Positions 19,461 through 38,465 of a DNA stretch of 64,000 nt are shown here, in pieces. A program made the translations under genes and the position numbers. Numbering within the stretch: position 1 is the stretch's first letter; every line of letters starts with the position of its first letter. The notes beneath the pieces are model-generated. The model was not told where the DNA came from, did no database searches, and worked only from the letters and a program-made list of their open reading frames with translations. Origin of the DNA: Nocardioides sp. (GTDB lineage: Bacteria; Actinomycetota; Actinomycetes; Propionibacteriales; Nocardioidaceae); NCBI RefSeq assembly GCF_004803405.1, contig NZ_SSXI01000060.1, positions 1-64,000 of the forward strand, read 5' to 3'.

Positions 19461-19901
19461 TCACGCGCCCCCGGCGTCAGGACGAACGAGTCGATCGTCC
19501 GGGATCACGGCGACGCCCAGGATCTCGATCATTGCTTCGGGCTGCCACAAGGCAGTCGTGCCGATGCCGGCCATGGCGGGGTAGACCGGGCCGGCCAGCT
19601 CGCGCCACGCGGCTCCGATCTCGCGGCTGTGGGCCTGGTAGTCGGGGATGTCGGTGAGGTAGATCGTGATTGACACGAGGTCTTCGGGGACCCCGCCGGC
19701 CTCGCGGAGCGTGGTCAGCACGTTGCCGAACGCCTGGCGGAACTGTTCGACGATCCCGCCAGGAACGATCCGCATGTTGGCGTCGAGCGCCGTCTGGCCA
19801 CCCAGGTAGAGCGTGTTGCCGCTCAGGGTGCCGTGCGAGTAGCCACTGGGTGCGGGGAGCGCAGCCGGGTTGACCGGACGGGGCGTGAGGTCGGTGCTCA
19901 T
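19461..19901 (-). CDS. RidA/YjgF-family enamine/imine deaminase
   Basis: A 146-aa Rid-superfamily protein with the typical SGNTLYLGGQTALDANMRIV, ITIYLTDI and MIEILGVAVIPD segments. RidA proteins hydrolyse enamine/imine intermediates, and some members deaminate 2-aminomuconate. The usual catalytic arginine position near residue 105 reads YPAMAGIGTTALWQPE, so arginine is not evident and it is probably a Rid subgroup member. It is divergent from the FAH operon over a 57-bp intergenic region. Deamination in the anthraniloyl-CoA pathway is a possible role (inference). Confidence 0.85.
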   Translation of the reverse strand: MSTDLTPRPVNPAALPAPSGYSHGTLSGNTLYLGGQTALDANMRIVPGGIVEQFRQAFGNVLTTLREAGGVPEDLVSITIYLTDIPDYQAHSREIGAAWRELAGPVYPAMAGIGTTALWQPEAMIEILGVAVIPDDRLVRPDAGGA

Positions 19902-19958
19902 GGACCCACCGTAGATCATCGATTGACAAGAGATCAACGTTCGTGCAGAAAATGTCAT

Positions 19959-20759
19959 ATGCAACTTGCGACTGTCCGATTCGCCGCCGGCACCGCCGCC
20001 GCTGCCCGGATAGATGACAGCTGGCACGAGCTGGGGGCACCTGACCTGTCCGCTCTGCTGGCGTCCGGCGCCGACTGTCGGCCCGGAGCGCCCATCGACG
20101 GTGCCGTACCCGTGTTGCCGCTGCCGCGCCCGGAAAAGGTTGTCTGCTGCGGCCTCAACTACGGCGACCACATCTCCGAGACAGGTCGGGCGGAGCCGTC
20201 GCATCCGACGCTGTTCGCCAAGTACGCCGACACGCTGATTGGCCCCGGCTCCGACATCACCGTGCCCGCCGGCCTGCAGGTGGACTGGGAGGCAGAGCTC
20301 GCCGTCGTCGTCGGCCGCGAACTGCGCAACGCGACGGTCCTGGAGGCCGAGGACGGGATCGCCGGTTACACCGTCGCCAACGACATCTCGATCAGGGACT
20401 GGCAGTGCCGGACACCCCAGTGGTTCCAGGGCAAGGCCTGGGACGCGACGACTCCGCTCGGCCCGGTCGTGGTCACGCCCGAGGAGCTCGACCCGGTCGC
20501 CGGGATCGAGGTGATCTGTCGGGTCAACGGCCTCGAGCGGCAGCACGGCAACACCAAGACCCTCGTGTTCGACTGCGCCACGCTGCTCTCCTACATCTCC
20601 ACCTTCACGGTGCTCCGTCCGGGCGACGTCGTGCTGACCGGGACCCCTGGCGGCGTCGGCATGGCGATGGACCCGCCGACGTACCTCGACGACGGCGACG
20701 TCGTCGAGACCGAGATCCCGGGCATCGGCACGCTCACGAACACCGTCCGCTTCCGCTGA
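19959..20759 (+). CDS. FAH-family hydrolase/isomerase
   Basis: A 266-aa fumarylacetoacetase-fold protein. Signatures are VVCCGLNYGDHISETG, the metal-ligand segment DWEAELAVVVGREL (Glu-x-Glu), ANDISIRDWQ, and VLTGTPGGVGM near the C-terminus. These enzymes cleave C-C bonds of beta-diketo acids or isomerise and decarboxylate related products. It is the first gene of a tightly packed seven-gene run ending with the PaaX-like gene. It could act on a ring-opened acyl product. The ATG at 19959 fits the frame. Confidence 0.88.
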   Translation: MQLATVRFAAGTAAAARIDDSWHELGAPDLSALLASGADCRPGAPIDGAVPVLPLPRPEKVVCCGLNYGDHISETGRAEPSHPTLFAKYADTLIGPGSDITVPAGLQVDWEAELAVVVGRELRNATVLEAEDGIAGYTVANDISIRDWQCRTPQWFQGKAWDATTPLGPVVVTPEELDPVAGIEVICRVNGLERQHGNTKTLVFDCATLLSYISTFTVLRPGDVVLTGTPGGVGMAMDPPTYLDDGDVVETEIPGIGTLTNTVRFR

Positions 20760-20782
20760 ATCCGCACTAGACAAGGACCGCC

Positions 20783-21268
20783 ATGGACCCCGACAACAGC
20801 AACTATGTGTTCGCGGGCGACGCCTCGCCGTACCTCCACGAGTCCGGACTGCTGATGCCTGTCGTCACCCGCGCCGGCCACGAGCCCGACCTCACCGGCC
20901 AGAGCGAGGGTGCCACGCGGATCAGCGGCGTCAGCATCCAGCACACCCCCGCCACGAAGCTGTGGTTCGGGAAGGTGCACAACCTCGCTGGCTACCGGTC
21001 GGTCCCCCACCACCACGGTGAGGCCGAGACCGGCGGCTACGTGCTCTCGGGTCGAGCCCGGATCTACTTCGGAGCGAGGTTCGAGGACTACGTCGACATG
21101 TCCGAGGGCGACTGGGTCTTCGTGCCACCGTTCATGCCGCACGTGGAATGCAACCTCGATCGCAACAACCCGCTGACCTGGATGACCACCCGGACCCCGG
21201 AGAACATCGTCGTGAACCTGCAGCAGGTCGACGACGCCGACCTGAAGGACTGGGTGAGCCGGCCGTGA
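20783..21268 (+). CDS. Single-domain cupin protein
   Basis: A 161-aa RmlC-like cupin. Motif 1 is PHHHGEAETGGYVLSGRA (His ligands near residues 74-76 and Glu near 80); motif 2 is DWVFVPPFMPHVECN. A mononuclear metal site is likely. It is much shorter than bicupin gentisate dioxygenases and lacks the 3-hydroxyanthranilate dioxygenase motifs, so a ring-cleaving function cannot be asserted. AAGGAC precedes the ATG. Confidence 0.8.
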   Translation: MDPDNSNYVFAGDASPYLHESGLLMPVVTRAGHEPDLTGQSEGATRISGVSIQHTPATKLWFGKVHNLAGYRSVPHHHGEAETGGYVLSGRARIYFGARFEDYVDMSEGDWVFVPPFMPHVECNLDRNNPLTWMTTRTPENIVVNLQQVDDADLKDWVSRP

Positions 21269-22173
21269 GCACGCCGACCTCAGCGATCTTCACCGACGCC
21301 GTCACCCTCAAGCCGACGCAGGCCGAGGTCTTCGACGTCGCCTTCACCGCGACCACCCAGCCCTGCCCGTGGCCCAAGGCGTACGGCGGCGACATGGTCG
21401 CCCAAGCTGTCGTGGCCGCCGCCCGGACGGTGACCGACGGCAAGTCGATGCACTCGATGCACTCCTACTTCATGCGGCCCGTCGAGATCGGGGCCGAGGT
21501 CCGCTACGAGATCGAGGTCCTGCGCGACGGCCGGGGATACAGCACCCGGCACGTGCGGGGGTTCCAGAACGGCAAGCCCGTCTACGTCTGCATGGCGAGC
21601 TACGCGGCGGGAGAGCCGAGCGGGAGCTTTCAGGCCACGATGCCCGCAGGGCTTCCCGCGCCCGAGTCGCTGCCGACCTCCGGCGACTACCTTGCCGAGC
21701 GCTCCGGTGGCACCATGACCGAGCGCTCGAAGGCCTACTGGTCGGGTGGCCGCAGCTTCGACATGCGGCACATGCCTGGACCGCTGTACCTCACCGTCGA
21801 GGGTGAGCCGGCGGCCCACCAGGCCATCTGGGTCAAGCCGTACGACGCCCTGCGGGACGTCGAGGGCCTCACCTCCGAGCAGCGGGACACCGCGGCGCTG
21901 GCCTACGTCTGCGACTACACGATCCTGGAGCCGGCACTGCGCGTGCTCGGGCTGGCGTGGGCGGACGAGGGTCTCGTCACGGCGAGCCTTGACCACGCGA
22001 TGTGGTTCCACCGGCCGGTCCGCATGGACGACTGGCTGCTCTACGCCCAGGAGGCGTACTCGGTGGAGGACGGGCGCGGCACGGCAGTCGGCCGCTTCTT
22101 CACCACCGACGGCGTGCTCGTCGCGACCGTCGTCCAGGAAGGCATGATCCGAGCGGAAGGCACAGCGTCATGA
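21265..22173 (+). CDS. TesB-like acyl-CoA thioesterase
   Basis: A 302-aa double-hotdog thioesterase II homologue. Visible signatures are WPKAYGGDMVAQAVVAA near residue 36, MHSYFMRPVEIG, STRHVRGFQNGK, and the C-terminal hotdog with ASLDHAMWFHRPVRMDDWLL and GRFFTTDGVLVATVVQEGM. It probably releases CoA from a pathway intermediate. The GTG start overlaps the cupin stop (GTGA) and its own stop overlaps the next ATG, so the genes are translationally coupled. Confidence 0.88.
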   Translation: MSTPTSAIFTDAVTLKPTQAEVFDVAFTATTQPCPWPKAYGGDMVAQAVVAAARTVTDGKSMHSMHSYFMRPVEIGAEVRYEIEVLRDGRGYSTRHVRGFQNGKPVYVCMASYAAGEPSGSFQATMPAGLPAPESLPTSGDYLAERSGGTMTERSKAYWSGGRSFDMRHMPGPLYLTVEGEPAAHQAIWVKPYDALRDVEGLTSEQRDTAALAYVCDYTILEPALRVLGLAWADEGLVTASLDHAMWFHRPVRMDDWLLYAQEAYSVEDGRGTAVGRFFTTDGVLVATVVQEGMIRAEGTAS

Positions 22174-24548
22174 AGATCGCGATCGCCGGTGGCGGCCCAG
22201 GAGGGCTCTACTTCGCCACGTTGATGAAGACCCTCGACCCGAGCCACGAGATCACGGTCTGGGAGCGCAACGCGCCGGACGACACGTTCGGGTTCGGCGT
22301 GGTGTTCTCCGACGAGACGCTCGGCAGCATCGAGGGAGCCGACCAGGTCGTCCACGACAGGATGGAGACCCGCTTCGCGCGGTGGACCGACATCGACGTC
22401 GAGTTCAACGGTCAGCCGTTCACGGTCGGCGGCCAGGGCTTCGCCGCCATGTCCCGCAAGGAGCTCCTCCAAATCATGCAGGAGCGGGTCGCCGAGCTCG
22501 GCGTGACTGTCCACTACCGGACCGAGGCCCCGGATCCCGACGAGCTGCGAGCGTCGTACGACCTGGTGCTCGCGGCCGACGGTCTCAACTCGATCTTCCG
22601 CACGAAGTACGCCGATGTCTTCCGGCCCACGCTCGACCGGCGCGCCAACAAGTACATCTGGCTCGGCACCGACCTGGTCTTCGAGGCGTTCCAGTTCTTC
22701 GTCAAGCAGACGGAGTGGGGCACGATGCAGATCCACGGCTACCCCTACTCCGACGAGGGCTCGACGTTCATCGTCGAGATGCACGAGGACGTCTGGCGCC
22801 GCGCCGGGCTGGACCGCACCGAGGGCGAGGTCTTCCCGCCGGGTGTGTCCGACGAGTACGCGGTCGCGCGCGTCAAGGAGATCTTCGCCGACGAGCTGCG
22901 GGGCCACGCGATCCTCACCAACAACTCGAAGTGGCTCAACTTCCACACGGTCCGCAACGAGCGGTGGTACGACGACAACGTCGTCCTGCTCGGCGACGCG
23001 GCCCACACCGCGCACTTCTCGATCGGGTCCGGCACCAAGCTGGCCATGGAGGACGCGCTCGCGCTCGCAGCCTGTCTCCACGAGCACCCCACCGTCCCTG
23101 CCGCGTTGGAGGCCTACGAGACCGAGCGCAAGCCGGTCGTGGAGTCGACGCAGCGCGCCGCGCAGGCGTCGCTGGAGTGGTTCGAAAACATCGGCATGTA
23201 CGCCGAGCAGGATCCGGCGCAGTTCGTCTTCAACCTGCTCACTCGATCGCGCCGGATCACCTTCGAAAACCTCAAGGACCGCGACGGCGACTTCGCAGCC
23301 CGGATGGAGGCGGAGTTCGCCCGCCACCAAGGGGTGTCCGAGGTCGCACCGGCAATGTTCCAGCCGGTCCGGATCGGCGACCTAGAGCTCAAGAACCGGG
23401 TCATGCTGTCGCCGATGGACATGTACTCCGCGACCGCCGGCGTGCCGAACGAGTTCCACCTCGTCCACCTCGGCTCGAAGGCGCTCGGCGGTGCCGGCCT
23501 GGTGATGACCGAGATGACCTGCGTCTCGCCCGAGGGCCGGATCACGCCCGGTTGCCCCGGCCTGTGGACCGACGAGCAGGCTGCGGCGTGGACCCGAGTG
23601 ACCGAATTCGTCCACGACCGCTCGACGGCCAAGATCGGCGTCCAGCTCGGCCACTCCGGCCGCAAGGGCTCGACGAAGCTGATGTGGCAGGGCATGGACG
23701 AACCGCTCGACGACGGCAACTGGGAGGTCGTCGGACCCTCCGCTCTGCCGTACGGCGCAGGCTGCCACATCCCGCGCGAGGCGACCCGCGCCGACCTGGA
23801 CCAGGTGGTCGCCGACTTCGAGGCGGCGGCACGACGGGCCGTCGACGCGGGCTTCGACCTGGTGGAGGTGCACGCCGCCCACGGCTACCTGCTCAGCTCC
23901 TTCCTCTCTCCGGTCGCCAACCACCGCACCGACGAGTACGGCGGCCCGCTGGAGAGCAGATTGCGCTTTCCTCTGGAGGTCTTCGCGGCCGTGCGGGCCG
24001 CGGTGCCTGCACAGGTCCCGGTCACCGTGCGGATCTCGGCGACCGACTGGATGCCGGACGGCAACACCGAGGACGACGCCGTGGAGATCGCGCGCGCCTT
24101 CATCGATGCTGGTGCCGCGGCGATCGACGTCTCCTCGGGCCAGGTGTGCAAGGACGAGAAGCCGGCGTTTGGCAGGTCCTACCAGACGCCGTTCGCCGAC
24201 AAGATCCGCCACCATGTCGCCGCGCCCGCCGGGGTGAAGGTGATCGCGGTCGGCGCGATCTCGTCGTACGACGACGTCAACTCGATCCTGCTCGCGGGCC
24301 GTGCCGACATCTGCGCGCTGGGCCGCACCCACCTCTACGACCCGAGCTGGACGCTGCACGCGGCGGCGGAGCAGGACTACCGCGGCGTGGCCGCCGAGTG
24401 GCCGGTGCAGTGGGCGGCGGGTCGCCGCAAGCCGCCGACGTCGCGCACCGACAAGATCCCACCTCGCCTCCAACTGCTGCGGGAGGGCGAGAACGACGGG
24501 GTCCACCTGCGGTGGACCCCGCCTGACCGCGCGCTCGCCGGTGTCTGA
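22170..24548 (+). CDS. Fused FAD monooxygenase-OYE reductase (salicylyl-CoA 5-hydroxylase / 2-aminobenzoyl-CoA monooxygenase type)
   Basis: A 792-aa fusion. Residues 1-390 are a PHBH-fold FAD monooxygenase: GGGPGGLYFATLMK at 6-19 and VVLLGDAAHTAHFSIGSGTK near 268-287. Residues 395-770 are an Old Yellow Enzyme-type FMN domain: PVRIGDLELKNRVMLSPMDM, QLGHSGRKGST near 495, VEVHAAHGYLLSSFLSP near 566, and GRTHLYDPSW. This order matches the 2-aminobenzoyl-CoA monooxygenase/reductase of Azoarcus evansii and proteins annotated as salicylyl-CoA 5-hydroxylase/oxidoreductase. The first family hydroxylates and partially reduces the ring of anthraniloyl-CoA. Nearby thioesterases and a PaaX-like regulator support a CoA-bound aromatic substrate. 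Which ring substituent is used cannot be decided from sequence. Confidence 0.85.
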   Translation: MKIAIAGGGPGGLYFATLMKTLDPSHEITVWERNAPDDTFGFGVVFSDETLGSIEGADQVVHDRMETRFARWTDIDVEFNGQPFTVGGQGFAAMSRKELLQIMQERVAELGVTVHYRTEAPDPDELRASYDLVLAADGLNSIFRTKYADVFRPTLDRRANKYIWLGTDLVFEAFQFFVKQTEWGTMQIHGYPYSDEGSTFIVEMHEDVWRRAGLDRTEGEVFPPGVSDEYAVARVKEIFADELRGHAILTNNSKWLNFHTVRNERWYDDNVVLLGDAAHTAHFSIGSGTKLAMEDALALAACLHEHPTVPAALEAYETERKPVVESTQRAAQASLEWFENIGMYAEQDPAQFVFNLLTRSRRITFENLKDRDGDFAARMEAEFARHQGVSEVAPAMFQPVRIGDLELKNRVMLSPMDMYSATAGVPNEFHLVHLGSKALGGAGLVMTEMTCVSPEGRITPGCPGLWTDEQAAAWTRVTEFVHDRSTAKIGVQLGHSGRKGSTKLMWQGMDEPLDDGNWEVVGPSALPYGAGCHIPREATRADLDQVVADFEAAARRAVDAGFDLVEVHAAHGYLLSSFLSPVANHRTDEYGGPLESRLRFPLEVFAAVRAAVPAQVPVTVRISATDWMPDGNTEDDAVEIARAFIDAGAAAIDVSSGQVCKDEKPAFGRSYQTPFADKIRHHVAAPAGVKVIAVGAISSYDDVNSILLAGRADICALGRTHLYDPSWTLHAAAEQDYRGVAAEWPVQWAAGRRKPPTSRTDKIPPRLQLLREGENDGVHLRWTPPDRALAGV

Positions 24549-25005
24549 CAGCCTGCTGGCCGTGACGGACGAGCAGCGACCGACAGGCACCTTCCGGACG
24601 CGGGTGGAGTGGGTCGACACGGACGCCTCCGGGATCTACCACAACAGCACGGTGACGCGGTTCGTCGAGGCCGCTGAGGCCGCGCTCATGCGTGAGCGCG
24701 GCCTCGACGGCTACTTCCCGAACGCCCCCCGGGTGCGCTATGAGGCTGATTTCCTCGCACCGTTGCGCTTCGGGCAGGAGGCCACCGCAACGGTGCGACT
24801 GGCTCGCGTGGGTACGGCGTCGATGACATGGGAGTTCGAGGTGTGGGGCGAAACGTTCGCGGGGCAACCGCGTGTGCTCGCCGCCCGCGGCAGCTACGTC
24901 ACCGTGCACACCGGTGCGGGCGTGGCCCGCGGCGATGAAGCACGTGGGGCGACGCCGTGGCCTGCTGAATGGGTCACGGCTCTCGGTGCAGAATGCCGCA
25001 TGTGA
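24541..25005 (+). CDS. 4-Hydroxybenzoyl-CoA-thioesterase-like hotdog protein
   Basis: A 154-aa single-hotdog protein. The acidic catalytic motif VEWVDTDASGIYHNSTVTRF near residues 22-41 matches the 4HBT DxDxxGIVxxxxY signature, and ERGLDGYF follows. The GTG start overlaps the preceding gene by 8 bp. Activity on an aryl-CoA or ring-derived CoA ester is likely. A second thioesterase in the same operon suggests different chain positions or a rescue function. Confidence 0.85.
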   Translation: MSDSLLAVTDEQRPTGTFRTRVEWVDTDASGIYHNSTVTRFVEAAEAALMRERGLDGYFPNAPRVRYEADFLAPLRFGQEATATVRLARVGTASMTWEFEVWGETFAGQPRVLAARGSYVTVHTGAGVARGDEARGATPWPAEWVTALGAECRM

Positions 25006-25814
25006 GCAAGCAGGGCCCCCAGTCGCGGACGACGCTCGTCACCTTCCTCGGCGCCGTGGTGCGACCGCTCGGCGGGTGGGTGCCGATCGCGTCGGCCGTC
25101 GACCTGCTCGCCGAGGTGGGTATCGACGCACCGAGCGTGCGCACGGCAGTCTTCCGGCTGAAGAAGAACGGGTGGTTGGAGTCGGAGTCGCGGGACGGTG
25201 TCCGCGGTTACCTGCTGACCGAGGTGGCCGACGCGACGCTGGCGGCCGGTGACGAGGTCATCTGGCACGCCCGAAAGCCGGCCGACCTGGGCGATGGCTG
25301 GTGCGTGGTCCACTTCGGTGTGCCGGAGTCGCTGCGCGCGAAGCGGCACCAGCTGCGGTCCCACCTCGCCAGCCTCGGGTTCGGCAATGTCGGCACCGCC
25401 CTTTGGATCGCACCTGCGCGGATGCGGGAAGCAGCTGAGCACGCCGTCGCCGAGCTCGATCTGGGCGACTACGCCGCGATCTTCGTCGGCGAATACCACG
25501 GCCCGCAGGATCTCGCGACGATGCTCTACGGTGCCTGGGACCTGACGTCGATCGACCAGAGCTACCGCGACTTCATCGACGCGTACCGGCCGGCGGCGAA
25601 GAAGCTGGCGCGCCTGCGCGACGGCGACGCGTTCGCGGCGTATCTCTCGATGCTCGATCGCTGGCGCAAGCTGCCGTTCCGGGACCCGGGCCTGCCACCG
25701 GAGGTGCTGGCCGACGACTGGAGCGCCGGCAACGCCGTCGCGTTGTTCGAGGAGCTGGTCGCCGCCCTCGAGAAGCCCGCGCTCGACCATGCCCGGGCCC
25801 ACTGGGGGAGCTGA
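24993..25814 (+). CDS. PaaX-like transcriptional repressor
   Basis: A 273-aa protein. A winged HTH occupies the first ~85 residues (SRTTLVTFLGAVVRPLGGWV, then APSVRTAVFRLKKNGWLES). It is followed by the PaaX central domain with WCVVHFGVPESLRAKRHQLR and a C-terminal helical domain (SYRDFIDAYRPAAKKL). PaaX proteins repress aromatic-CoA catabolic operons and are released by aryl-CoA thioesters. Its position at the end of the operon suggests feedback by an aryl-CoA intermediate (inference). The start could be ATG 24993 or GTG 25002; both overlap the upstream stop. Confidence 0.85.
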   Translation: MPHVSKQGPQSRTTLVTFLGAVVRPLGGWVPIASAVDLLAEVGIDAPSVRTAVFRLKKNGWLESESRDGVRGYLLTEVADATLAAGDEVIWHARKPADLGDGWCVVHFGVPESLRAKRHQLRSHLASLGFGNVGTALWIAPARMREAAEHAVAELDLGDYAAIFVGEYHGPQDLATMLYGAWDLTSIDQSYRDFIDAYRPAAKKLARLRDGDAFAAYLSMLDRWRKLPFRDPGLPPEVLADDWSAGNAVALFEELVAALEKPALDHARAHWGS

Positions 25815-25841
25815 CCCGGGCACAGCCTCCTGCACGGCGGA

Positions 25842-26942
25842 TCAGAGCGTGTCAGGGCGCAGGCCCTTCTTGGCCAGCCGGGGCATGACCTCCTGGGCGA
25901 AGTACTCCAGCTCGCCGACGTAGTCGACGAACGCCATGGTGATGCCCCCGAAGCCAGCCTTCGCGAAGCGCTCGATCTCGTCGGCGACGTCGTCGGGCGA
26001 CCCGATGAGCGGACAGGTGCCGTGGCCGGCAGCGAAGCGGCTGCGGAAGTTCTGCAGCAGTTCACGGCTGAAGGACTGGGCGTGCAGCCCCTGGAGGCGC
26101 ATCAGGTTGTCGACGGCATCCCAGTCGGCGTTCTCCTCCGCGTAGTAGTGGAGGTATTCCTCGGCCTCCTTGCGCGTCGGGCGGCAGACGACGTGGGTCG
26201 GGGTGAGCACGCCGGCCTGGCGGCCGAGCGCTGCAGAGTTGGCCTGGAGCTCCTTCACCACTGCGGCGCCGTCCTCGGGACCGCCGACGATGGTGAAGAC
26301 GAAGTCCGCGTTCCGGGCGGCATATGCCTTGCCCTGGGCCGACGACCCGGCATTGAGGATGGGGAGCCTGCGGTTCGCGGGCTTCGGCACGGACTCGATG
26401 CCCTCCAGGTTCCAAAATCGGCCACTGATGTCATAGCGGCCGTCTTCCGACCACAGGCGGTTGATGACATCGATCCACTCCTGGGCGCGCTCGTAGCGCG
26501 AGTCGTGGTCCTGCGGCAGGTCGACGCCCATGGCGACGTACTCGGGCTGGTTCCAGCCCGCGACCACGTTGACTCCGACGCGCCCGGGCGCCATCTGGTC
26601 GATGGTGGCCAGCTGCTTCGCAGTCACCGCCGGGTGGTTGAAGGCCGTGTGGATGGTCGCGAACGCGCTGAGTCGCTGGGTGTTGGACAGGATCGCGGTC
26701 GCCCACGGGACGGGCTCGAGCACGCCCTCGTGGAAGTTGGTGTGGCCGCCGTACCCGATCCACCGGGCGATCGGCAGCATGAAGTCGATGCCGGTTGCGT
26801 CGGCCACCTGGGCCAGGCGCATGTTGTCCTCCCACGACGCCGACCACCGCTCGGGGATCGTGGTGACTGCGAGACCGCCCGAGCAGTTCGACGAGAAGAG
26901 GCCGAGGCGGAAGTGCTCGGCTTCGAGGATCGGGATGTTCAT
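25842..26942 (-). CDS. LLM-class flavin monooxygenase (RutA/SfnG-like)
   Basis: A 366-aa bacterial-luciferase-fold protein. The sequence fits the RutA/SfnG-like subgroup: SNCSGGLAVTTIPERWSASW near residues 18-37, DFMLPIARWIGYGG, HPAVTAKQLATIDQMAPGR, and VNVVAGWNQPEY. Such two-component enzymes use FMNH2 from a separate reductase, which is the upstream gene 26 bp away. Members oxidise pyrimidines, sulfones or chlorinated aromatics. In this cluster an N-heterocyclic ring oxidation is conceivable, but the substrate is not determined. Confidence 0.87.
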   Translation of the reverse strand: MNIPILEAEHFRLGLFSSNCSGGLAVTTIPERWSASWEDNMRLAQVADATGIDFMLPIARWIGYGGHTNFHEGVLEPVPWATAILSNTQRLSAFATIHTAFNHPAVTAKQLATIDQMAPGRVGVNVVAGWNQPEYVAMGVDLPQDHDSRYERAQEWIDVINRLWSEDGRYDISGRFWNLEGIESVPKPANRRLPILNAGSSAQGKAYAARNADFVFTIVGGPEDGAAVVKELQANSAALGRQAGVLTPTHVVCRPTRKEAEEYLHYYAEENADWDAVDNLMRLQGLHAQSFSRELLQNFRSRFAAGHGTCPLIGSPDDVADEIERFAKAGFGGITMAFVDYVGELEYFAQEVMPRLAKKGLRPDTL

Positions 26943-26968: not shown

Positions 26969-27445
26969 TCAGCGCTGGAGCGTCATAGGGATGGACTCGG
27001 CGGCGGTCATCGTGACGACTTCGCCGATCAGGTACGTGTGATCACCGACGGGAAGCCGGTCGACAACTCGGCACTCGAGCCGCAGCGGCACCTCGATGGC
27101 GAGGACCGGCATGCCATCCAGGCCGGCGCCGACCTCCACGCCTGCGAACCGGTCGCTGGCGGACGTCGCGAATTGGATGACGAGATCCATCTGGTCGCCG
27201 GCCATCACGTGGACGACGTAGCCTTCGGCAGCCAGCCACTCGTCGAGCTGGCTGGACTTGTGGTCGATGCACCACCCGACCAGCGCTGGCTCCAGCGACG
27301 TGGGGTGGAAGCTGTTGACAGTCTTTCCGATCGGGCGGTCGTCCCCGAGGGCGGTCACGACGGCGACGCCGGTGGGCCACCGTGCCAGCTGGCTGCGGAG
27401 CGTGGAGGGCGTCACGTCGAATGTGCTGGGTGTCACACAGGTCAT
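26969..27445 (-). CDS. Flavin reductase domain protein
   Basis: A 158-aa FMN-reductase-like protein with the split-barrel signatures ARWPTGVAVVTALGDDRPIG, KTVNSFHPTSLEPALVGWCI and GVEVGAGLDGMPVL. Typical family sequences read T.NSF.SVS.DPP; the change to HPTSLEP is mild. It supplies reduced flavin to the LLM monooxygenase downstream. It is divergent from the AraC gene, with direct-repeat sites in the shared upstream region. Confidence 0.87.
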   Translation of the reverse strand: MTCVTPSTFDVTPSTLRSQLARWPTGVAVVTALGDDRPIGKTVNSFHPTSLEPALVGWCIDHKSSQLDEWLAAEGYVVHVMAGDQMDLVIQFATSASDRFAGVEVGAGLDGMPVLAIEVPLRLECRVVDRLPVGDHTYLIGEVVTMTAAESIPMTLQR

Positions 27446-31711: not shown

Positions 31712-33366
31712 TGTCGACCTGGACCACGGGCAAGCGCCCGATCACGATCGCGATCCTGGCCATGGGTGGCGAGGGCGGTGGCGTGCTCGCCGACTGGATC
31801 GTCGCCGTCGGCGAGGAGGCCGGCTACTACGCACAGAGCACCTCGGTCGCCGGCGTCGCCCAGCGCACCGGGGCAACGGTCTACTACGTCGAGCTGTACC
31901 CCGGCGAGGAGCCGGGCCCCGGCAGCGTCCGTCACGAGCCGGTGATGAGCCTGTTCCCCACCCCTGGTGAGGTGGACATCGTGATCGCCTCGGAGCTGAT
32001 GGAGGCCGGCCGTGCCATCCAGCGCGGCTTTGCCACTCCTGACCGGACGACGCTCATCGCGTCCACCAACCGCGTGTACTCGATGGATGAGAAGCTCGCG
32101 CTCGGCGACGGCCGCATCGACAGCAACGCGCTGCTCGAGGCAGCCCACCGGGCCGCGCGGAAGCTCATCGCCGCCGACTTCATGCAGCTCGCGCTCGAGG
32201 CGGGCAGCGTCATCAGCGCCTCGCTGTTCGGCGCGTTGGCAGGGTCCGGCCAGCTGCCGTTCGCGCGCGAGGCGTTCGAGGACGCCATCCGGGCGAGCGG
32301 CAAGGGGGTCGACGCCTCGTTGCGTGCCTTCGCTGCAGGCTTCAACGCCGCCCAGCAGCCGGCGCCCCGGCCCACTCCCGCCCCCGTCGCGACCCCAGGC
32401 GTGGGCGGCGGTCCGGTGCCCGTCACCATCAGTCGACGCCGGCCGGTCGATCCCGCAGAGGAGGCGGCCGAGGCCGTCGAGAGACGCCGGCAGGAGCTTG
32501 CGGTCAGCGACCCCGCGTCGCTCGTCGGGCCGAGGCTGCAGCCGCACGCGAGCAGGATCACTGCCGAGTTCCCGGTGCCGGCCCGGTCGATGCTGCTCCA
32601 CGGCGCGGTCCGCACGGCCGTCTACCAGGGCCCCGCCTACACGGACCGCTACCTCGACCGGGTCGCCCGCGTCGCCGTGCACGAACGCGAGGGCAGTGAT
32701 GCCCGGCTGACCACCGAGGCGGCCCGGCACGTCGCGCTCTGGATGTGCTACCAGGACACGATCCAGGTCGCGCAGCAGAAGATCAGGCGACGCCGGCTTG
32801 ACGGCGTACGCGCCGAGGCGAAGGCCGCACCGGGGCAGCTGATGAACGTCCGGGAGTACCTGCACCCGCAGGTCGAGGAGATCGCCGACACGCTGCCGAC
32901 CCGACTCGGCCGCTGGGTGGCGGGCTCGGCGTGGTTCGGCAAGCTCGTCGGCAGGCTGACCCGCAACGGCATCGTCGTCAACACGACCGGCGCGATCGGC
33001 TACACGCTGCTGTGGGCGATGGCGATGTTCCGGCCTCTGCGACCGCGGTCGCTGCGGTTCGGCCGCGAGCAGGAGGCGATCGAGGCGTGGCTCGAGAAGG
33101 TCACCGCCGTCGCGCCCGCGGACTACGACCTGGCCTGCGAGATCCTCGAGTGCCAGCGCGTCCTGAAGGGGTACGGCGAGACGCACCACCATGGCCAGGA
33201 GAGCTTCGGCCTGCTGATGGCAGCCGTCGACGGCCTGGTCGGGCGACCCGACGCCGGGGCCACGCTGGCTTCGCTCCGTGCAGCTGCCCTGGCCGACGAG
33301 GACGGTTCCGCGCTGCGGTCCGATCTCGCCCGGGTGGCCGGCCCGGTGCTCGTCGAGGCCGGGTGA
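31711..33366 (+). CDS. Indolepyruvate oxidoreductase-type beta subunit with DUF6537-like extension
   Basis: A 551-aa protein. Residues 1-215 are the gamma/beta-type domain of 2-oxoacid oxidoreductases (AILAMGGEGGGVLADWIVAV, STSVAGVAQRTGATVYYVEL). A Pro/Ala-rich linker follows near residues 217-245. The remainder (~300 residues, RYLDRVARVAVHEREGSD, VLKGYGETHHHGQESF) corresponds to the extension, DUF6537-like, seen in long IorB-family proteins. Its ATG overlaps the IorA stop by one base. The two subunits should form one complex. Confidence 0.87.
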   Translation: MSTWTTGKRPITIAILAMGGEGGGVLADWIVAVGEEAGYYAQSTSVAGVAQRTGATVYYVELYPGEEPGPGSVRHEPVMSLFPTPGEVDIVIASELMEAGRAIQRGFATPDRTTLIASTNRVYSMDEKLALGDGRIDSNALLEAAHRAARKLIAADFMQLALEAGSVISASLFGALAGSGQLPFAREAFEDAIRASGKGVDASLRAFAAGFNAAQQPAPRPTPAPVATPGVGGGPVPVTISRRRPVDPAEEAAEAVERRRQELAVSDPASLVGPRLQPHASRITAEFPVPARSMLLHGAVRTAVYQGPAYTDRYLDRVARVAVHEREGSDARLTTEAARHVALWMCYQDTIQVAQQKIRRRRLDGVRAEAKAAPGQLMNVREYLHPQVEEIADTLPTRLGRWVAGSAWFGKLVGRLTRNGIVVNTTGAIGYTLLWAMAMFRPLRPRSLRFGREQEAIEAWLEKVTAVAPADYDLACEILECQRVLKGYGETHHHGQESFGLLMAAVDGLVGRPDAGATLASLRAAALADEDGSALRSDLARVAGPVLVEAG

Positions 33367-33381
33367 CCGGACGACAGGCGA

Positions 33382-34344
33382 TCAGCGACCGAGCGTCTGC
33401 GAGGGCAGCTCCTGGAAGGCAGCCCGGTAGACCTGCGAGAACCGCCCGAGGTGGAAGAACCCCCACCGGGACGCGATGTCGGTGACGGAGACGGTGGTGG
33501 GGTCGGCGTCGAGCAGGTCCTTGCGGACGCGGTCGAGGCGCACTCGGCGCACGTACTCCAAGGGCGTGACGTCGAGCTCGCGCTGGAACGCCTCCTGGAG
33601 AGTGCGCGCGGAGACCCTGGCGGCCTGCGCGAGGTCCGCCAACCGCCATGGTCGGTCGGGGGCGGCCTCGACGGCCGCCGTCACGACTCGCACGGCGCGC
33701 GACCCGAAGACGGCGGGTGCGACGGCAGCGCCCGCGCTGTTGGGTTGCGCGCTCAGCAGGCCCGCGATGACGGCCTGCTCGAAGCTGGACGCGGCCAGCG
33801 GCGACTGGAACAGCGAGCCCCCTGCGTCCAGGTCGTCGACCGCGAGGCGGACCAGTCGCAGCCAGGAGCGGACCGCGGGCGAGGCGAGGTCGAGCAGGGA
33901 GGAGAAGACGACCGGCTGGACGTTGTCGCCGGGCGCCGCGATCGCTTCAACCGCCTCCCTGCGGATGTGGACGAGCAGCTGCTCACAGTCCGCCGACCAG
34001 ATCATGTCGACCGGCTCGGTCGGAGACCCGATCGTCGCGCGACTGCGGTCGGACGCCACCACCCGGTCGCCGACCTTGACGCGTGCCGTGCCGCTCAGGG
34101 GGATCTGGGCCAGGAAGAAGGTGTCGAAGGTCCCGGGCGTGATGCGCACCTCGTCGCCGTACCGCAGGTAGTTCAGGGTGACGTTCTCGCCGACAGCGGC
34201 CGCGTTGTGGACCATGTCGAGGTGGCTGCCACGTCGGGTGAGCGTCAGGAAGTGCGGACAGAAGGCCTGCGCGACCTCGTCGCGCGCCTCCTCGACCTCA
34301 CGGGTGGCGATCCGCGGGTGTCGCGTCAGCAGGATCGTTGCCAT
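33382..34344 (-). CDS. AraC-family regulator, paralogue
   Basis: A 320-aa protein. The N-terminal domain has LNYLRYGDEVRITPGTFDTF and AQIPLSGTARVKVGDRVV. The C-terminal HTH_18 has RLADLAQAARVSARTLQEAF and IASRWGFFHLGRFSQVYRAA. The start at 34344 is backed by GAGGAG. It is convergent with IorB and divergent from the SDR operon, whose upstream region carries the shared GGATAG element. It resembles the AraC protein at 27617 in architecture. Confidence 0.88.
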   Translation of the reverse strand: MATILLTRHPRIATREVEEARDEVAQAFCPHFLTLTRRGSHLDMVHNAAAVGENVTLNYLRYGDEVRITPGTFDTFFLAQIPLSGTARVKVGDRVVASDRSRATIGSPTEPVDMIWSADCEQLLVHIRREAVEAIAAPGDNVQPVVFSSLLDLASPAVRSWLRLVRLAVDDLDAGGSLFQSPLAASSFEQAVIAGLLSAQPNSAGAAVAPAVFGSRAVRVVTAAVEAAPDRPWRLADLAQAARVSARTLQEAFQRELDVTPLEYVRRVRLDRVRKDLLDADPTTVSVTDIASRWGFFHLGRFSQVYRAAFQELPSQTLGR

Positions 34345-34472
34345 GGGAACTCCTCGGTCCGAAGTCGAGCATACGGCAGTTGCACCCCCTGTGTCATTAC
34401 AATTCCATGACGTTCGTGTTTCAAACGCAACGCACCGTTCTCTGGGCGGACGCGGATGGCGGCTGTCACCCG

Positions 34473-34518
34473 CGCATTCCGGATAGTGGCCTGCGTCACG
34501 GCTTCGTAGTGTCCGCTC
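34473..34518 (+). promoter_or_regulatory. Shared AraC-type promoter element, copy 2
   Basis: CGCATTCCGGATAG (34473-34486), a 20-bp spacer, and TAGTGTCCGCTC (34507-34518) repeat the layout seen before the cyclase gene. The ATG of the SDR gene lies 39 bp downstream. The spacer sequences differ, so conservation is confined to the two blocks. Confidence 0.6.
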
Positions 34519-34556
34519 CATCCCCGCCCGGGGCTGGAAATGGAGAGGACCTCGAC

Positions 34557-35342
34557 ATGCCCGACCTGACCGGACGCACCGCAATCGTCACCGGCGGTGC
34601 CACCCTGCTCGCTCACGGCGTCGTCACCGCACTCACCGACGCCGGCGCGAACGTCGTCATCGCCGACCTCGACCCCGAAGGCAAGGCCGTCGCCGACGCG
34701 TTCGGTGGCGAGGTGAGCTTCGTCCTCACGGACGTCACCGCGGACGAGTCGATCGCCGACCTCGTCCGTACGACGGTCGAGCGGCACGGCGGCATCGACA
34801 TCGTCGTCAACCTGGCAGCGACGTACCTCGACGCCGGATTCGACACCCCGCGGGCGGACTGGCTCACCGCGCTCGACGTCAATGTGGTCAGCATGGTCGA
34901 GGTCGTCCGGCACGCGCACCCGTACCTGAAGGCCAGCGGGCACGGCGCCGTCGTCAACTTCACGTCGATCTCGAGCAAGGTCGCGCAGACCGGTCGCTGG
35001 GTCTATCCGGCCAGCAAGGCGGCGATCGCCCAGCTCACCCGTTCGATGGCGATGGACCTCGCCGGCGACGGCATCCGGGTCAACTCCCTCAGCCCCGGCT
35101 GGACCTGGTCGAAGATCATGGCCGACCTCTCCGGTGACGACCGCGAGAAGACCGACCGCGTCGCCGCGCCGTTCCACCTGACCGGCCGGGTCGGCGACGG
35201 GTGCGAGGTGGGGAGGGTCGTCGCCTTCCTCGCCTCCGACGACGCCTCCGTCGTCACCGGCGCGGACTGGGCCGCCGACGGCGGCTACTCCGCCATGGGG
35301 CCCGAGCAGGCCGTCCTGACGATCCCGCAGCTCAGCGCCTGA
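34557..35342 (+). CDS. Short-chain dehydrogenase/reductase
   Basis: A 261-aa classical-size SDR. The cofactor loop reads TGGATLLAHG instead of TGxxxGxG, an unusual spacing of the last glycine. NLAATY (the NNAG position), catalytic Ser in FTSISS, and YPASK (Tyr-x-x-x-Lys) are present, followed by VNSLSPGWTWSKIM. The Asp at the end of beta-2 (IADLDPEG) predicts NAD(H). It probably oxidises an alcohol intermediate in the island pathway. It is the first gene of an operon with the FMO and CrtI-like genes. Confidence 0.87.
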   Translation: MPDLTGRTAIVTGGATLLAHGVVTALTDAGANVVIADLDPEGKAVADAFGGEVSFVLTDVTADESIADLVRTTVERHGGIDIVVNLAATYLDAGFDTPRADWLTALDVNVVSMVEVVRHAHPYLKASGHGAVVNFTSISSKVAQTGRWVYPASKAAIAQLTRSMAMDLAGDGIRVNSLSPGWTWSKIMADLSGDDREKTDRVAAPFHLTGRVGDGCEVGRVVAFLASDDASVVTGADWAADGGYSAMGPEQAVLTIPQLSA

Positions 35343-35379
35343 GCACGGAACCTCCCTGCTTCCTCCGAAGGAGACCATC

Positions 35380-36849
35380 ATGAAGATCGGCATCGTCGGC
35401 GCAGGGTTCGCCGGCATCTCGTCAGCCAAGGTTCTCAAGCAGCTCGGCCACGACGTCACCGTCTACGAGAAAGCCCCGGACGTGGGTGGGGTCTGGAGCG
35501 AGATCCGTCGCTATCCGGGCCTGCGGACCCAGAACAACAAGGGCACCTACTGCCTGTCGGACATGAAGATGCCGCGGAGCTTCCCCGAGTGGCCGAGCGG
35601 TGAGCAGGTGCAGCAGTACCTGCAGACGTACGCCGAGCGGTTCGACCTGATGCGGCACATCCGACTGGGCAACGAGGTCTCGCGGGCCGAGCCAGCCGTC
35701 GGCGGCGGTTGGGATGTGACCGCCGCCGGCGAGACAATCCACTACGACCACCTCGTGCTGGCGAGCGGCATCTTCTCGCGCCCGTTCGTCCCGCCGTTCG
35801 AGGACATCGACGTCCTTGAGGAGGCGGGTGGGCAGATACTGCCGGCCGGTGATCTCCACAGCCTCGACGAGGTCAGGGACAAGCACGTCGTGGTCGTGGG
35901 CTACGGGAAGTCCGCGTGCGACATCACGGTCGAGATCGCCAAGGTGGCGGCATCCACGACCGTCGTCGCCCGCGAACTGCTCTGGAAGATGCCGCGCAAG
36001 GTCAATGGCGTCCTCAACTACAAGTACCTGATGCTCACGCGGATGGGCGAGGGCCTGTTCCGCTATCGCTCCGTGAACGGTCCGGAGAAGTTGCTGCACG
36101 CCGCCGACTCCAAGCTGGCCAACAACATGCTCGGCAGCGTCGAGAAGGTCACGACCAAGCAGCTCAGCCTCGATAGCCTCGGGCTCGTGCCGCAGGGCAC
36201 ATTCTCCGACATCGCGAAGTCGACGGTCTCGCTGGTGACCGAGGGCTTCTTCGAGGGAGTCGCCTCGGGCGCGATCGCGGTCCACCGCGACACCACCGTC
36301 GCCCGGTTCCTCGAGAAGGACGGCCAGCCGCACGCGGAGCTGGCCAACGGCGAGGTCGTCCGGGCGGACGTCGTGCTGGCCGCCACCGGATGGACGCAGG
36401 ACATCCCCTTCCTGCCGAAGCATGTGACCGACCGGCTCCTCGACGAGAACGGCGACTTCCTGCTGTACCGCCAGATCCACCCGATCCACGTGTCCGACCT
36501 CAGCTTCGCGGGTTATAACTCCTCGTTCTTCTCGCCGTTGTCGGCCGAGATGTCGGCGGTCTGGATCGGCTCGTACCTCGATGGCCACCACCAACTGCCT
36601 TCGGAGGCCTCGATGCTCCTGGAGACGAAGGAGCGGCTGGCCTGGATGCGTGAGCGCACCGGCGGGATGCACGCCCGCGGCACCAACATCATCCCGTTCT
36701 CGATGCACAACGTGGACGAGGTGCTCTCCGACGTCGGTCTCGACGTGCCGCGGCGCACCAAGGCCAAGCAGTGGCTGTTGCCGGTCAAGCCGGCGGACTA
36801 CCGCAAGATCACCCCGAGGCTCGTCCGCAAGCTGAAAGCGGGGCGCTGA
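35380..36849 (+). CDS. FMO-type flavin-containing monooxygenase
   Basis: A 489-aa class B flavin monooxygenase-like protein. The FAD dinucleotide fold is IGIVGAGFAGISSAKVLKQL at residues 3-22; the NADPH fold is HVVVVGYGKSACDI near 169-182. The LASGIFSRPFVPPF segment is present, but the canonical FxGxxxHxxxW Baeyer-Villiger fingerprint is not: AGDLHSL replaces it. N- or C-oxygenation of an aromatic intermediate is possible. AAGGAG precedes the ATG. Its TGA overlaps the next ATG by one base. Confidence 0.85.
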   Translation: MKIGIVGAGFAGISSAKVLKQLGHDVTVYEKAPDVGGVWSEIRRYPGLRTQNNKGTYCLSDMKMPRSFPEWPSGEQVQQYLQTYAERFDLMRHIRLGNEVSRAEPAVGGGWDVTAAGETIHYDHLVLASGIFSRPFVPPFEDIDVLEEAGGQILPAGDLHSLDEVRDKHVVVVGYGKSACDITVEIAKVAASTTVVARELLWKMPRKVNGVLNYKYLMLTRMGEGLFRYRSVNGPEKLLHAADSKLANNMLGSVEKVTTKQLSLDSLGLVPQGTFSDIAKSTVSLVTEGFFEGVASGAIAVHRDTTVARFLEKDGQPHAELANGEVVRADVVLAATGWTQDIPFLPKHVTDRLLDENGDFLLYRQIHPIHVSDLSFAGYNSSFFSPLSAEMSAVWIGSYLDGHHQLPSEASMLLETKERLAWMRERTGGMHARGTNIIPFSMHNVDEVLSDVGLDVPRRTKAKQWLLPVKPADYRKITPRLVRKLKAGR

Positions 36850-38465
36850 TGCCGACGTACGACGCCATCGTCGTCGGTGCCGGCATCAACGGTCTCGTTG
36901 CGGCGGCCGAGCTGTCGGGCGCGGGGTGGAAGGTCGCCCTGGTCGAGGAGCGTGACCGGCTGGGCGGCTTCATCGCCTCGGACGAGCTCACCCTGCCCGG
37001 GTTCGTGCACGACACCTTCTCCTCCTGGCACTCGCTGTTCATGGCCGGCGCCGCGTACGCCAACCTCGGGGCCGACCTCCACCGGCACGGGCTGGAGTAC
37101 TGCAACACCGACGGTGCCGTGACGGCGTCGGTCTCCGACAGGGGAGTGGTGCTCGCCCAGCGTGACGTTGGGGCGACGGCGGAGTCGCTCGAGCACCCGG
37201 CCGACCGGGACGCCTATGTACGGATGCTCGCCGACATGGAGCGGTGGGCGCCTCACGTGTTCGGAGCGTTGAGTTCCGAGATGACCGGCCGGACTCTGGC
37301 CCGGCTCGGCGTCGCCGCGCTCCGTGGCCTGCGCGGGAGCGGTCTCGACGAGCTGCTCCGCGCCTCCGTCCAGAGCGGCCGTGCCTACTGTCGCGAGCGC
37401 TTCGCCGACTGGGAGGTCGACCAGCTCTGGGCGCCCTGGCTGCTTCATGCCGGGCTCGCGCCCGACCACGCCTCCGGTGGGTTGATGCTCCCGGTGATGG
37501 CGTTCTCGATGCACGGGCTCGGCCTGCCGGTCGTGAAGGGCGGCGCGGGGAACTTCGTCGCCGCCTTCGAGCGGCTGCTCGCCGAACGCGGCGTCGACGT
37601 ACACCCCGGCGCGGCCGTGACCCGGATCGAGGTCCGCGACGGCCGGACCACCGGCGTCGTTGCCGGCGGTCGTCACCTGGCCGCGCGGCGGGCCGTCCTC
37701 GCCTCGACCTCGACCACCGCGCTCTACGACCAGCTGCTGTCTCCCGACGCGGTCGGCGCCGCCGAACGAACCGCGGTGGTCCGGCACCGTCCGGGCCGTG
37801 CGGCGATGCAGATCCACGTAGCGCTCGATGCTCCCATCTCGTGGACCGACAGCCGGCTCGACGAGGTGCCCCTGGTCCACATCAGCGATGGCTCGGGTAC
37901 GACAGGCGTAGCCTGCGCGCAGGCGGAGGCCGGCCTCCTGCCGGCAGAGCCCACGGTCGTCGTCGGGCAGCAGTGCCGGCTCGACCCAACCCGCGCGCCC
38001 GCAGGGAAGGCGACGCTGTGGATCCAGCTGCAGGAGGTGCCGTTCGCGCCCGTCGGCGACGCGGCCGGGGCCATCGACGCCGACGGCTGGTGGTCGGACG
38101 GCGTCCTGAAGGCCTACACGGACCGGGTCCTTGACCGGGTCGCCGCCCACGCTCCCGGGTTGCTTTCCTCGGTCCTGGAGGTCAAGACGCTGCCCCCGAC
38201 CGCGTTGCAGGCTGCCAACCGCAACGCCGTCGCCGGCGACCCCTACGGCGGTGCCGCGGAGCTCGACCAGAGCCTGCTCTGGCGACCCGGCACGCGAACC
38301 GGCCACGCGACTGGCGCCGGGGGCCTACACCACATCGGCGCCTTCACCCATCCTGGCCCCGGGCTCGGCGGTGGATCCGGCCACCTCGTCGCCCAACAAC
38401 TCCTCAAGCACTCCCGGTCCGCGCGGATCGTGGGAACGCCACTAAGACGCCTTGGTCGCGGCTGA
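36849..38465 (+). CDS. CrtI/PYROXD2-like FAD oxidoreductase
   Basis: A 538-aa phytoene-desaturase-related flavoprotein. The N-terminal FAD motif is AIVVGAGINGLVAAAELSGA at residues 6-25, followed by RLGGFIASDEL. LPVVKGGAGNFVAAFERLL lies mid-protein, and a C-terminal HPGPGLGGGSGHL motif resembles the family FAD/C-terminal signature. These proteins desaturate or oxidise hydrophobic or cyclic substrates, and many members near catabolic clusters are uncharacterised. It is the last gene of the SDR operon and the last intact gene before the right island boundary. Confidence 0.83.
   Translation: MPTYDAIVVGAGINGLVAAAELSGAGWKVALVEERDRLGGFIASDELTLPGFVHDTFSSWHSLFMAGAAYANLGADLHRHGLEYCNTDGAVTASVSDRGVVLAQRDVGATAESLEHPADRDAYVRMLADMERWAPHVFGALSSEMTGRTLARLGVAALRGLRGSGLDELLRASVQSGRAYCRERFADWEVDQLWAPWLLHAGLAPDHASGGLMLPVMAFSMHGLGLPVVKGGAGNFVAAFERLLAERGVDVHPGAAVTRIEVRDGRTTGVVAGGRHLAARRAVLASTSTTALYDQLLSPDAVGAAERTAVVRHRPGRAAMQIHVALDAPISWTDSRLDEVPLVHISDGSGTTGVACAQAEAGLLPAEPTVVVGQQCRLDPTRAPAGKATLWIQLQEVPFAPVGDAAGAIDADGWWSDGVLKAYTDRVLDRVAAHAPGLLSSVLEVKTLPPTALQAANRNAVAGDPYGGAAELDQSLLWRPGTRTGHATGAGGLHHIGAFTHPGPGLGGGSGHLVAQQLLKHSRSARIVGTPLRRLGRG

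Follow-up and report, generated by a model that had tools for sequence, protein, structure and literature searches.

How could a bacterium carry isatin into an aerobic pathway of coenzyme A (CoA) esters? The question is raised by a gene island at positions 19461-38465 of a 64,000-nucleotide stretch of Nocardioides sp. DNA (NZ_SSXI01000060.1, positions 1 to 64,000), here called the window; the contig that carries it is 128.6 kb long and belongs to a 4.67-Mb draft genome (G000). The original prediction was that a cyclase-family hydrolase (IsaH), directly followed by a 2-oxo acid oxidoreductase of the IorA/IorB type (IorAB), would open isatin and turn the product into anthraniloyl-CoA, to be processed by a monooxygenase-OYE fusion. 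Gene calls and Pfam and NCBIfam scans found every gene that it named within the island, including the fusion, RidA, the thioesterases, FAH and PaaX as well as the LLM, flavin reductase, FMO, SDR and CrtI-like genes; the cyclase gene runs to 29511 and is followed by IorA from 29537, whose end at 31711 is also the start of IorB. Homology, gene neighbourhood, the lack of a close ligase homologue and the exchange of IorAB for a decarboxylase in related clusters, from which we infer every reaction in this organism, suggest that the island is quite probably an aerobic unit leading from isatin through isatinate to anthraniloyl-CoA, by way of IorAB, and on into a 2-aminobenzoyl-CoA monooxygenase route.

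In the proposed scheme, IsaH would open isatin to isatinate (2-aminophenylglyoxylate), and IorA/IorB, with thiamine diphosphate (ThDP) and Fe-S clusters, would convert isatinate and CoA to anthraniloyl-CoA and CO2 and pass the electrons to a ferredoxin-type acceptor. The fusion may then hydroxylate and reduce anthraniloyl-CoA to 2-amino-5-oxocyclohex-1-ene-carboxyl-CoA, an enamine putatively hydrolysed by RidA, after which FAH, the cupin and the thioesterases would carry on, with PaaX and the AraC proteins as predicted regulators. IorAB would thus stand in for two enzymes of related clusters, the ThDP decarboxylase and the ATP-dependent anthranilate-CoA ligase. The genes of the island, in order, are as follows.

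19461..19919 (-): RidA-family protein (PF01042, 72 bits)
20112..20759 (+): FAH-family hydrolase (PF01557, 232.7 bits), start uncertain
20783..21268 (+): small cupin (PF07883, barely above cut-off)
21265..22173 (+): TesB-type acyl-CoA thioesterase (PF02551/PF20789/PF13622)
22170..24548 (+): FAD monooxygenase-OYE fusion (PF01494 and PF00724; NF006101, 1216.7 bits against a cut-off of 1078)
24541..25005 (+): 4HBT thioesterase (PF03061)
24993..25814 (+): PaaX-family regulator, candidate aryl-CoA sensor (PF07848/PF20803/PF08223)
25842..26942 (-): LLM flavin monooxygenase, SfnG/RutA-like (PF00296), possible upper-pathway or accessory enzyme
26969..27415 (-): flavin reductase, partner of the LLM enzyme (PF01613)
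27617..28585 (+): AraC-family regulator (AraC1), AndR-like (NF041686, 155 bits, cut-off of 350 not reached)
28741..29511 (+): isatin hydrolase-like cyclase, IsaH (best PDB match 5nmp, E 2.8e-77)
29537..31711 (+): IorA-type ThDP 2-oxo acid oxidoreductase, alpha subunit (PF02775)
31711..33366 (+): IorB-type beta subunit with DUF6537 (NF006179, 707.2 bits against a cut-off of 348; PF01558, PF20169)
33382..34344 (-): AraC-family regulator, AndR-like (NF041686, 175 bits, under the cut-off)
34557..35342 (+): SDR, upper-pathway candidate (PF13561)
35380..36849 (+): FMO-like flavoprotein, upper-pathway candidate (PF00743)
36849..38465 (+): CrtO/CrtI-like FAD oxidoreductase, upper-pathway candidate (PF01593)

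To see which enzyme follows the hydrolase elsewhere, we counted the neighbours of IsaH in the best 80 of 568 confirmed stretches of a genome scan, all 80 of them actinobacterial (L033-L112); L033, L034, L035, L036 and L037 are the same genomes as G201, G239, G237, G255 and G220 and were counted once. A ThDP decarboxylase of the acetolactate-synthase superfamily lay within 1 kb of IsaH in 72 of these loci, and within 40 bp in 58 of the 72. IorAB adjoined IsaH in seven, at a distance of 3-265 bp, and one locus, in Klenkia marina (L042, hydrolase at 82%), had neither within 10 kb. None of the NCBIfam models listed reached its cut-off for an example of this decarboxylase (L030:12711-14351); the enzyme is a candidate isatinate decarboxylase of actinobacterial isatin hydrolase loci. 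On well supported branches of two IsaH trees, described below, the IorAB label changes at least seven times (larger tree) or at least six times (reduced tree); in both, the label was set by hand for L152 and L153, where IorAB lies at a distance of ~8 and 15 kb. Beside the hydrolase, IorAB and the decarboxylase look interchangeable. Because two unlike ThDP enzymes exchange beside one hydrolase, the product of that hydrolase would be expected to be a 2-oxo acid, as isatinate is. IorAB also accompanies close relatives of assayed isatin hydrolases: it lies within ~3 kb of IsaH in Sulfitobacter indolifex (87% identical to LaIHB) and Burkholderia multivorans (79% identical to RsIHA), and in Caballeronia SBC1 the hydrolase (77% identical to RsIHA) is found ~8 kb past IorB in one cluster. 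Among 294 genomes of the window's family that were searched, IorA adjoins IsaH in 11 of the 11 that have an IorA match at E <= 1e-100.

If IorAB makes the CoA ester directly, a ligase should be dispensable. The quinaldine plasmid pAL1 of Arthrobacter sp. Rue61a carries the cassette RidA-FAH-cupin-TesB-ligase-fusion-4HBT-PaaX, and in five Nocardioides-type genomes a ligase likewise separates TesB from the fusion; the window's TesB and fusion genes overlap by 4 bases, with no ligase between them. A search of the whole draft genome for the pAL1 ligase gave a best match of 30% identity, against 61-79% for ligase homologues in related cassettes. We then drew a class sample of 394 genomes evenly and inspected 40 fusion neighbourhoods from 66 matches other than the window (ranks 1-20, 22-34 and seven lower chosen ones, rank 21 lying at a contig end), each reaching ~9 kb to either side, several of them cut by contig ends (L187, L190, L198 and L205 most). 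Of the 34 loci without IorAB, 30 had a ligase homologue (at least 45%) near the fusion, compared with 1 of the 6 with IorAB (Fisher p 0.001). Adding ten Nocardioides-type islands, with a 12 kb limit, gave 6 of 16 with IorAB against 30 of 34 without (p 0.0004). No close ligase homologue was found in G000, G220 and G102, three of the 11 IorA-positive family genomes (one 87% complete), and no orthologue in G474 and G506, two of nine IorA-positive class-sample genomes; none of these five genomes has an anthranilate 1,2-dioxygenase above the family cut-off. Separately, the contig that holds the island encodes a ring-hydroxylating dioxygenase alpha fragment (G000:C224:111346-111924) scoring 111 bits on the anthranilate dioxygenase model (cut-off 672). 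G413 has much the same island (SDR-FMO-CrtO-IsaH and the lower cassette), except that a ThDP decarboxylase and a ligase occupy the position of IorAB and that the stretch showed no LLM, flavin reductase or AraC1. The missing ligase of the window's cassette and the IorAB/decarboxylase exchange are what a CoA-forming IorAB predicts, and they support the originally proposed conversion of isatinate to anthraniloyl-CoA, a step that we still infer from genomic context.

The alternative that survives best, and one we consider rather unlikely, is that isatinate goes through 2-aminobenzaldehyde to free anthranilate, IorAB being a plain decarboxylase or an accessory and a ligase from elsewhere activating anthranilate. 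The decarboxylase does take the IorAB position in 72 of the best 80 loci, Rhodococcus R138 has an aldehyde dehydrogenase ~6.8 kb downstream of its decarboxylase, and C7H7NO, the formula of 2-aminobenzaldehyde, appears together with anthranilate in Variovorax (PMC12633357). It is harder to reconcile with the five genomes that have neither a close ligase nor an above-cut-off anthranilate 1,2-dioxygenase, with the rarity of the ligase beside the fusion where IorAB is present, or with EdcC, an IOR-family protein of aerobic estrogen degradation for which decarboxylation of a 2-oxo acid and addition of CoA, yielding a CoA ester, has been proposed (PMC7793797). We therefore prefer direct formation of anthraniloyl-CoA by IorAB.

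The lower cassette points to the same intermediate. The window's fusion is 70.6% identical to that of pAL1, and related fusion cassettes lie near kynU, tryptophan 2,3-dioxygenase (TDO) and aqdC1, an alkylquinolone gene that presumably leads to anthranilate. In the fusion tree, the window falls in a 25-row clade with the pAL1, kynU-, TDO- and aqdC1-associated fusions. Because these cassettes accompany routes to anthranilate, the fusion would be of the 2-aminobenzoyl-CoA rather than the salicylyl-CoA type, the placement for which the original prediction had called. The pAL1 anthranilate-CoA ligase has been assayed, anthraniloyl-CoA was detected in anthranilate-grown Rue61a cells, and a C7H8O4-CoA ester, possibly cyclohexanedione-carboxyl-CoA, was reported only from anthranilate-grown cells in the data we draw on (PMC3534580). 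RidA acting as an enamine hydrolase would yield C7H8O4-CoA from the product of the fusion. RidA is found with the fusion on pAL1, in Tsukamurella, on two Rhodococcus plasmids and in 30 of the 40 class-sample stretches; TesB is found in 9 of the 40. Besides its TesB-cupin form the cassette has several others, many of them with enoyl-CoA hydratase and acyl-CoA dehydrogenase genes, and such beta-oxidation-type companions are seen near fusions in Azospirillum and Aminobacter. Another set occurs at fusion/IorAB loci L152:4705-11027, L205, L213, L214 and L161, which have a cupin of the 375-aa type, FAH, a carbon-nitrogen hydrolase and an Asp/Glu racemase; it would fit cleavage of the 5-hydroxyanthranilate ring to an amide, followed by maleate and fumarate.

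That the fusion is instead a salicylyl-CoA 5-hydroxylase, as its NCBIfam model names it, in a salicylate/gentisate route, we regard as very unlikely. It passes the NF006101 cut-off under that name, and thioesterases and a cupin are present; yet neither a salicylate-CoA ligase nor a gentisate dioxygenase was found among the scanned genes of 19461-38465, the cupin being no match in size for gentisate 1,2-dioxygenase. The cassette moreover carries RidA and accompanies anthranilate-forming genes, the pAL1 ligase uses anthranilate, and Rue61a, which bears the cassette, is described as failing to grow on salicylate or gentisate (PMC3534580). The model name (NF006101/PRK08255, 'bifunctional salicylyl-CoA 5-hydroxylase') also covers several fusions beside anthranilate-forming genes, possibly as an over-annotation.

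IorA scores 272.0 bits on TIGR03336, far below the cut-off of 650.9, which is in keeping with another substrate; by its sequence, the island protein is related to, yet distinct from, classical indolepyruvate:ferredoxin oxidoreductase. It carries the ThDP motif GDGGF and the cysteines C661, C664, C667 and C677 and C625, C631 and C637, the second Fe-S cluster having an Asp where we would expect the fourth Cys. A PDB search gave no match for IorA at E 1e-3. Among plasmid records with IorA (E <= 1e-30), 40 of 53 also hold IsaH (E <= 1e-30) at any distance, and all 40 are among the 46 with IorA at ~59% identity or more. The 13 records without IsaH comprise six with one 67.8% IorA, four at 52-56% and three at 26-28%. 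In one of the six (L158:12001-14349), no IorB is annotated alongside and transposases lie nearby. Among the 52-56% relatives, IorAB of Variovorax boronicumulans (56%, L162:13998-24574) has an alpha-hydroxy acid oxidase and an enolase-superfamily protein as neighbours, which may point to a mandelate-type use. This neighbourhood is what speaks for a slightly weaker competitor still, in which phenylglyoxylate or an aryl 2-oxo acid like it is turned into benzoyl-CoA by IorAB and some other cyclic amide or lactone is the substrate of the cyclase. We think it improbable in the extreme for the window, since IsaH is absent from all four records with 52-56% relatives and present in 40 of 46 at ~59% or more, scans of the island genes turned up no hydroxy acid oxidase, and the island's lower cassette belongs to the anthranilate type. 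The original prediction had kept mandelate-type and salicylyl-CoA routes as alternatives; the cassette context and the co-occurrence of IsaH disfavour both.

The assignment of anthraniloyl-CoA as the product of IorAB depends on the cyclase, which the original prediction had placed in the isatin hydrolase superfamily. In a PDB search its closest solved structures are the isatin hydrolases of Ralstonia and Labrenzia themselves, which sharpens that assignment, and it is 48-50% identical over ~250 residues to the assayed enzymes LaIHA, LaIHB and RsIHA. Its predicted structure (predicted local distance difference test score, pLDDT, 85.7) has a template modelling (TM) score of 0.91 to isatin hydrolases, compared with 0.63-0.66 to KynB structures. 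The Mn ligands His-x3-His-x-Asp and the catalytic His/Asp are kept (H69, H73, D75, H79, D192 and H206), as is the aromatic pocket contributed by the partner subunit (W59-G-W61, with W80 and F203); residue roles for the metal and catalytic sites and the WxW pocket follow PMC6117287. In a reduced tree, a branch with 100% support in the Shimodaira-Hasegawa-like approximate likelihood ratio test (SH-aLRT) separates the KynB rows from every isatin-hydrolase-like row, and the cyclase sits in a 33-row actinobacterial group (95%) beside an 11-row group (88%) with the three assayed enzymes. In a larger tree, the assayed enzymes lie inside a wide clade without the window cyclase, and the KynB branch is weak (53/75). 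The larger tree left out L001, L002, L003, L008, L018, L019, L132, L137 and L149 (duplicates or fragments), identical sequences and low-coverage matches, and included one row, L167_KynB, read on the wrong strand; the reduced tree was built without that row and kept every fourth of 76 decarboxylase rows. In both trees L006 and L007, which are on long branches and 33-34% identical to the window cyclase, fall among the assayed enzymes, a placement that we regard as an artefact. The cyclase thus falls with the isatin hydrolases and away from KynB, as the original prediction had anticipated, and that it could be an arylformamidase of the kynurenine route with an unrelated IorAB is scarcely credible: the superfamily is shared, but the TIGR03035 match of 40.5 bits is weak against a cut-off of 223, KynB splits off in the trees, isatin hydrolase structures outrank those of KynB, and the KynB motif I(L/I)E is absent. 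The salicylate/gentisate, mandelate and kynurenine formamidase readings were accordingly rejected.

Several observations weigh against an isatin-to-anthraniloyl-CoA unit. The published isatin hydrolase signature is GLQC/GLAS (PMC6117287), where the cyclase has GLTQ; GLTQ is found in most actinobacterial relatives and GLTS in some, in a motif count that includes duplicate loci. Because of this departure from the signature, we call the enzyme isatin hydrolase-like, its tree position, fold and metal and pocket residues notwithstanding. The ligase association tests ignore the relatedness of the genomes. L212 was counted as lacking IorAB, although on its contig IorA lies at a distance of ~12 kb and a ligase at 9 kb; once it is reassigned, the counts become 2 of 7 loci with IorAB against 30 of 33 without (p 0.0015), and the L199 genome also has IorA elsewhere. 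A ligase homologue is kept, whether inside the cassette or at another place in the genome, in 8 of the 11 IorA-positive family genomes (E <= 1e-80) and in seven of the nine IorA-positive genomes among 12 class-sample genomes checked (E <= 1e-60), two of these seven matches reading through a stop. We therefore rejected the idea that IorAB genomes never need a ligase; as five IorA-positive genomes have no ligase match, the ligase would be dispensable beside IorAB though often kept. In the account of Rue61a given in PMC3534580, growth on 1H-4-oxoquinaldine gave cells in which no anthraniloyl-CoA was found, and a set of paralogues lies on the chromosome of the strain. Six plasmid records with a 68% IorA (Hydrogenophaga, Variovorax from linuron-contaminated soil, and uncultured) have no IsaH, and since the 52-56% relatives include one beside an alpha-hydroxy acid oxidase, the IorA family is not tied to one substrate. 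Finally, in the iad loci of auxin degraders, for which iadA and iadB are exclusive markers and the route runs via isatin and isatinic acid to anthranilate (PMC9613470), the Variovorax iadC-K2 region alone restores anthranilate (PMC12633357), which means that anthranilate can be formed there without IorAB. Judged from gene names, we read this segment as excluding iadAB; C8H7NO3 and C7H7NO accumulate only in strains overexpressing iadC-K2 (PMC12633357), a pile-up that fits IadAB as the missing isatinate consumer.

Nine further genomes of the family carry most island modules in shuffled order, at 52-92% protein identity, which rules out chance clustering. SDR-FMO-CrtO was not seen in the G201 stretch, nor LLM-reductase-AraC1 in that of G269. 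More broadly, the modules stay together yet reshuffle between related genomes (L014, L134-L151). The small cupin was undetected in the island stretches of G034, G222, G239 and G237 and is therefore not essential; its residues H76, H78, E82 and H120 are conserved in an alignment of seven sequences, and its predicted structure has a mean pLDDT of 34.7. The FAH start is uncertain because the frame is open from 19833, upstream of the called start at 20112, and homologues are longer (277-303 aa). A second aromatic-type cluster lies at 41436-47655 of the window, with a VOC protein, FAH, an acyl-CoA synthetase and an MhpA-like hydroxylase; after the hydroxylase comes a gene whose first residues suggest a TetR-like regulator.

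How isatin itself might arise is suggested by the genes upstream in the route. In G255 and G293, the SDR-FMO-CrtO genes immediately precede IsaH-IorA-IorB; G269 keeps this order on the minus strand. These genes accompany IorAB in Tsukamurella and Klenkia terrae, and the decarboxylase in G413. In L047 and L100 a CrtO-like gene comes right before IsaH, and in L044 such a gene is the neighbour of IsaH in the opposite orientation. The LLM enzyme, whose best PDB relatives are SfnG (8t0u) and RutA, also occurs near decarboxylase-type isatin hydrolases (L044, L052 and L087). Searches with the FMO, CrtO-like and LLM proteins led to remote or broad families from which no substrate could be read, and gene calls and family scans found no acyl-CoA ligase or thiolase of the indole-3-acetic acid (IAA) type in the island. 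It is our guess that FMO, SDR, CrtO-like and LLM enzymes with the reductase deliver isatin from indole or a 3-substituted indole.

Beyond the window, we lean towards the broader claim that the IorAB proteins of this clade, with IadAB of auxin-degrading Proteobacteria among them, act as an isatinate:ferredoxin oxidoreductase making anthraniloyl-CoA. In B. japonicum, iorB and iorA are induced 7.6- and 30.7-fold by IAA (PMC3788728), and the portions of PMC9613470 and PMC12633357 on which we rely assign no reaction to iadA/iadB. Our proposal offers a testable one for these markers of iad-type auxin degradation. If it is true, what the isatin branch of auxin and indole catabolism actually yields in the cell would be anthraniloyl-CoA, free anthranilate being a leak product, and ligase-free strains would be expected to use isatin, not anthranilate, for growth. 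It would also constitute a CoA-conserving link from isatin to the 2-aminobenzoyl-CoA pathway that spares the ATP of the anthranilate-CoA ligase. A second candidate is exposed in the ThDP decarboxylase that stands beside most of the best actinobacterial isatin hydrolase loci.

Among known systems, the 2-aminobenzoyl-CoA pathway of Azoarcus evansii shares the monooxygenase/reductase fusion with the window; its companions are of the beta-oxidation type, those of the window FAH, cupin and TesB. Plasmid pAL1 is closer, with RidA-FAH-cupin-TesB-...-fusion-PaaX/hotdog in nearly the window's order and a fusion 71% identical (PMC3534580), but it has the ligase between TesB and the fusion, in place of which the window has the cyclase and IorAB. 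Compared with LaIHA, LaIHB and RsIHA (PMC6117287), the window cyclase is alike in fold, Mn ligands, catalytic His/Asp and WxW pocket; it differs by GLTQ and is nested among the three in neither tree. EdcC, like the island IorAB, is a proposed aerobic CoA-ester former of the IOR family, but is described as a single gene acting on a steroid meta-cleavage product (PMC7793797). The iad loci of Variovorax, Achromobacter and Bradyrhizobium share with the island iadA/iadB, which are IorA/IorB, and iadI (PMC9613470, PMC12633357), a gene annotated as kynurenine formamidase that appears to be isatin-hydrolase-like; IadA/IadB- and IadI-type genes of the island were matched by family. Pseudomonas LY1 has genes named iadA/iadB needed for growth on IAA (PMC8383072), whose identity with IorAB could not be told and which were not used here. 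Azospirillum thermophilum combines in one run IorAB, a Rieske oxygenase and reductase, a ligase (IadCDE/IadF-like by annotation) and the fusion, with IsaH ~15 kb away. In the titles and passages covered, our searches of open-licence articles found no statement of a CoA-forming isatinate route or of such a role for IorAB. The iad loci have the Rieske oxygenase IadCDE, the ligase IadF, the thiolase IadG and MarR, none of which family scans found in the island; for this reason the island is not an iad locus. It has SDR, FMO, CrtO-like, LLM and flavin reductase as upper genes and includes the anthraniloyl-CoA cassette, whereas the published end product of the iad loci is anthranilate (PMC9613470, PMC12633357). 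The claim of a distinct route thus stands in part: the pairing of IorAB with an isatin-hydrolase-like gene was already known from the iad loci, and its CoA-forming role appears to be new.

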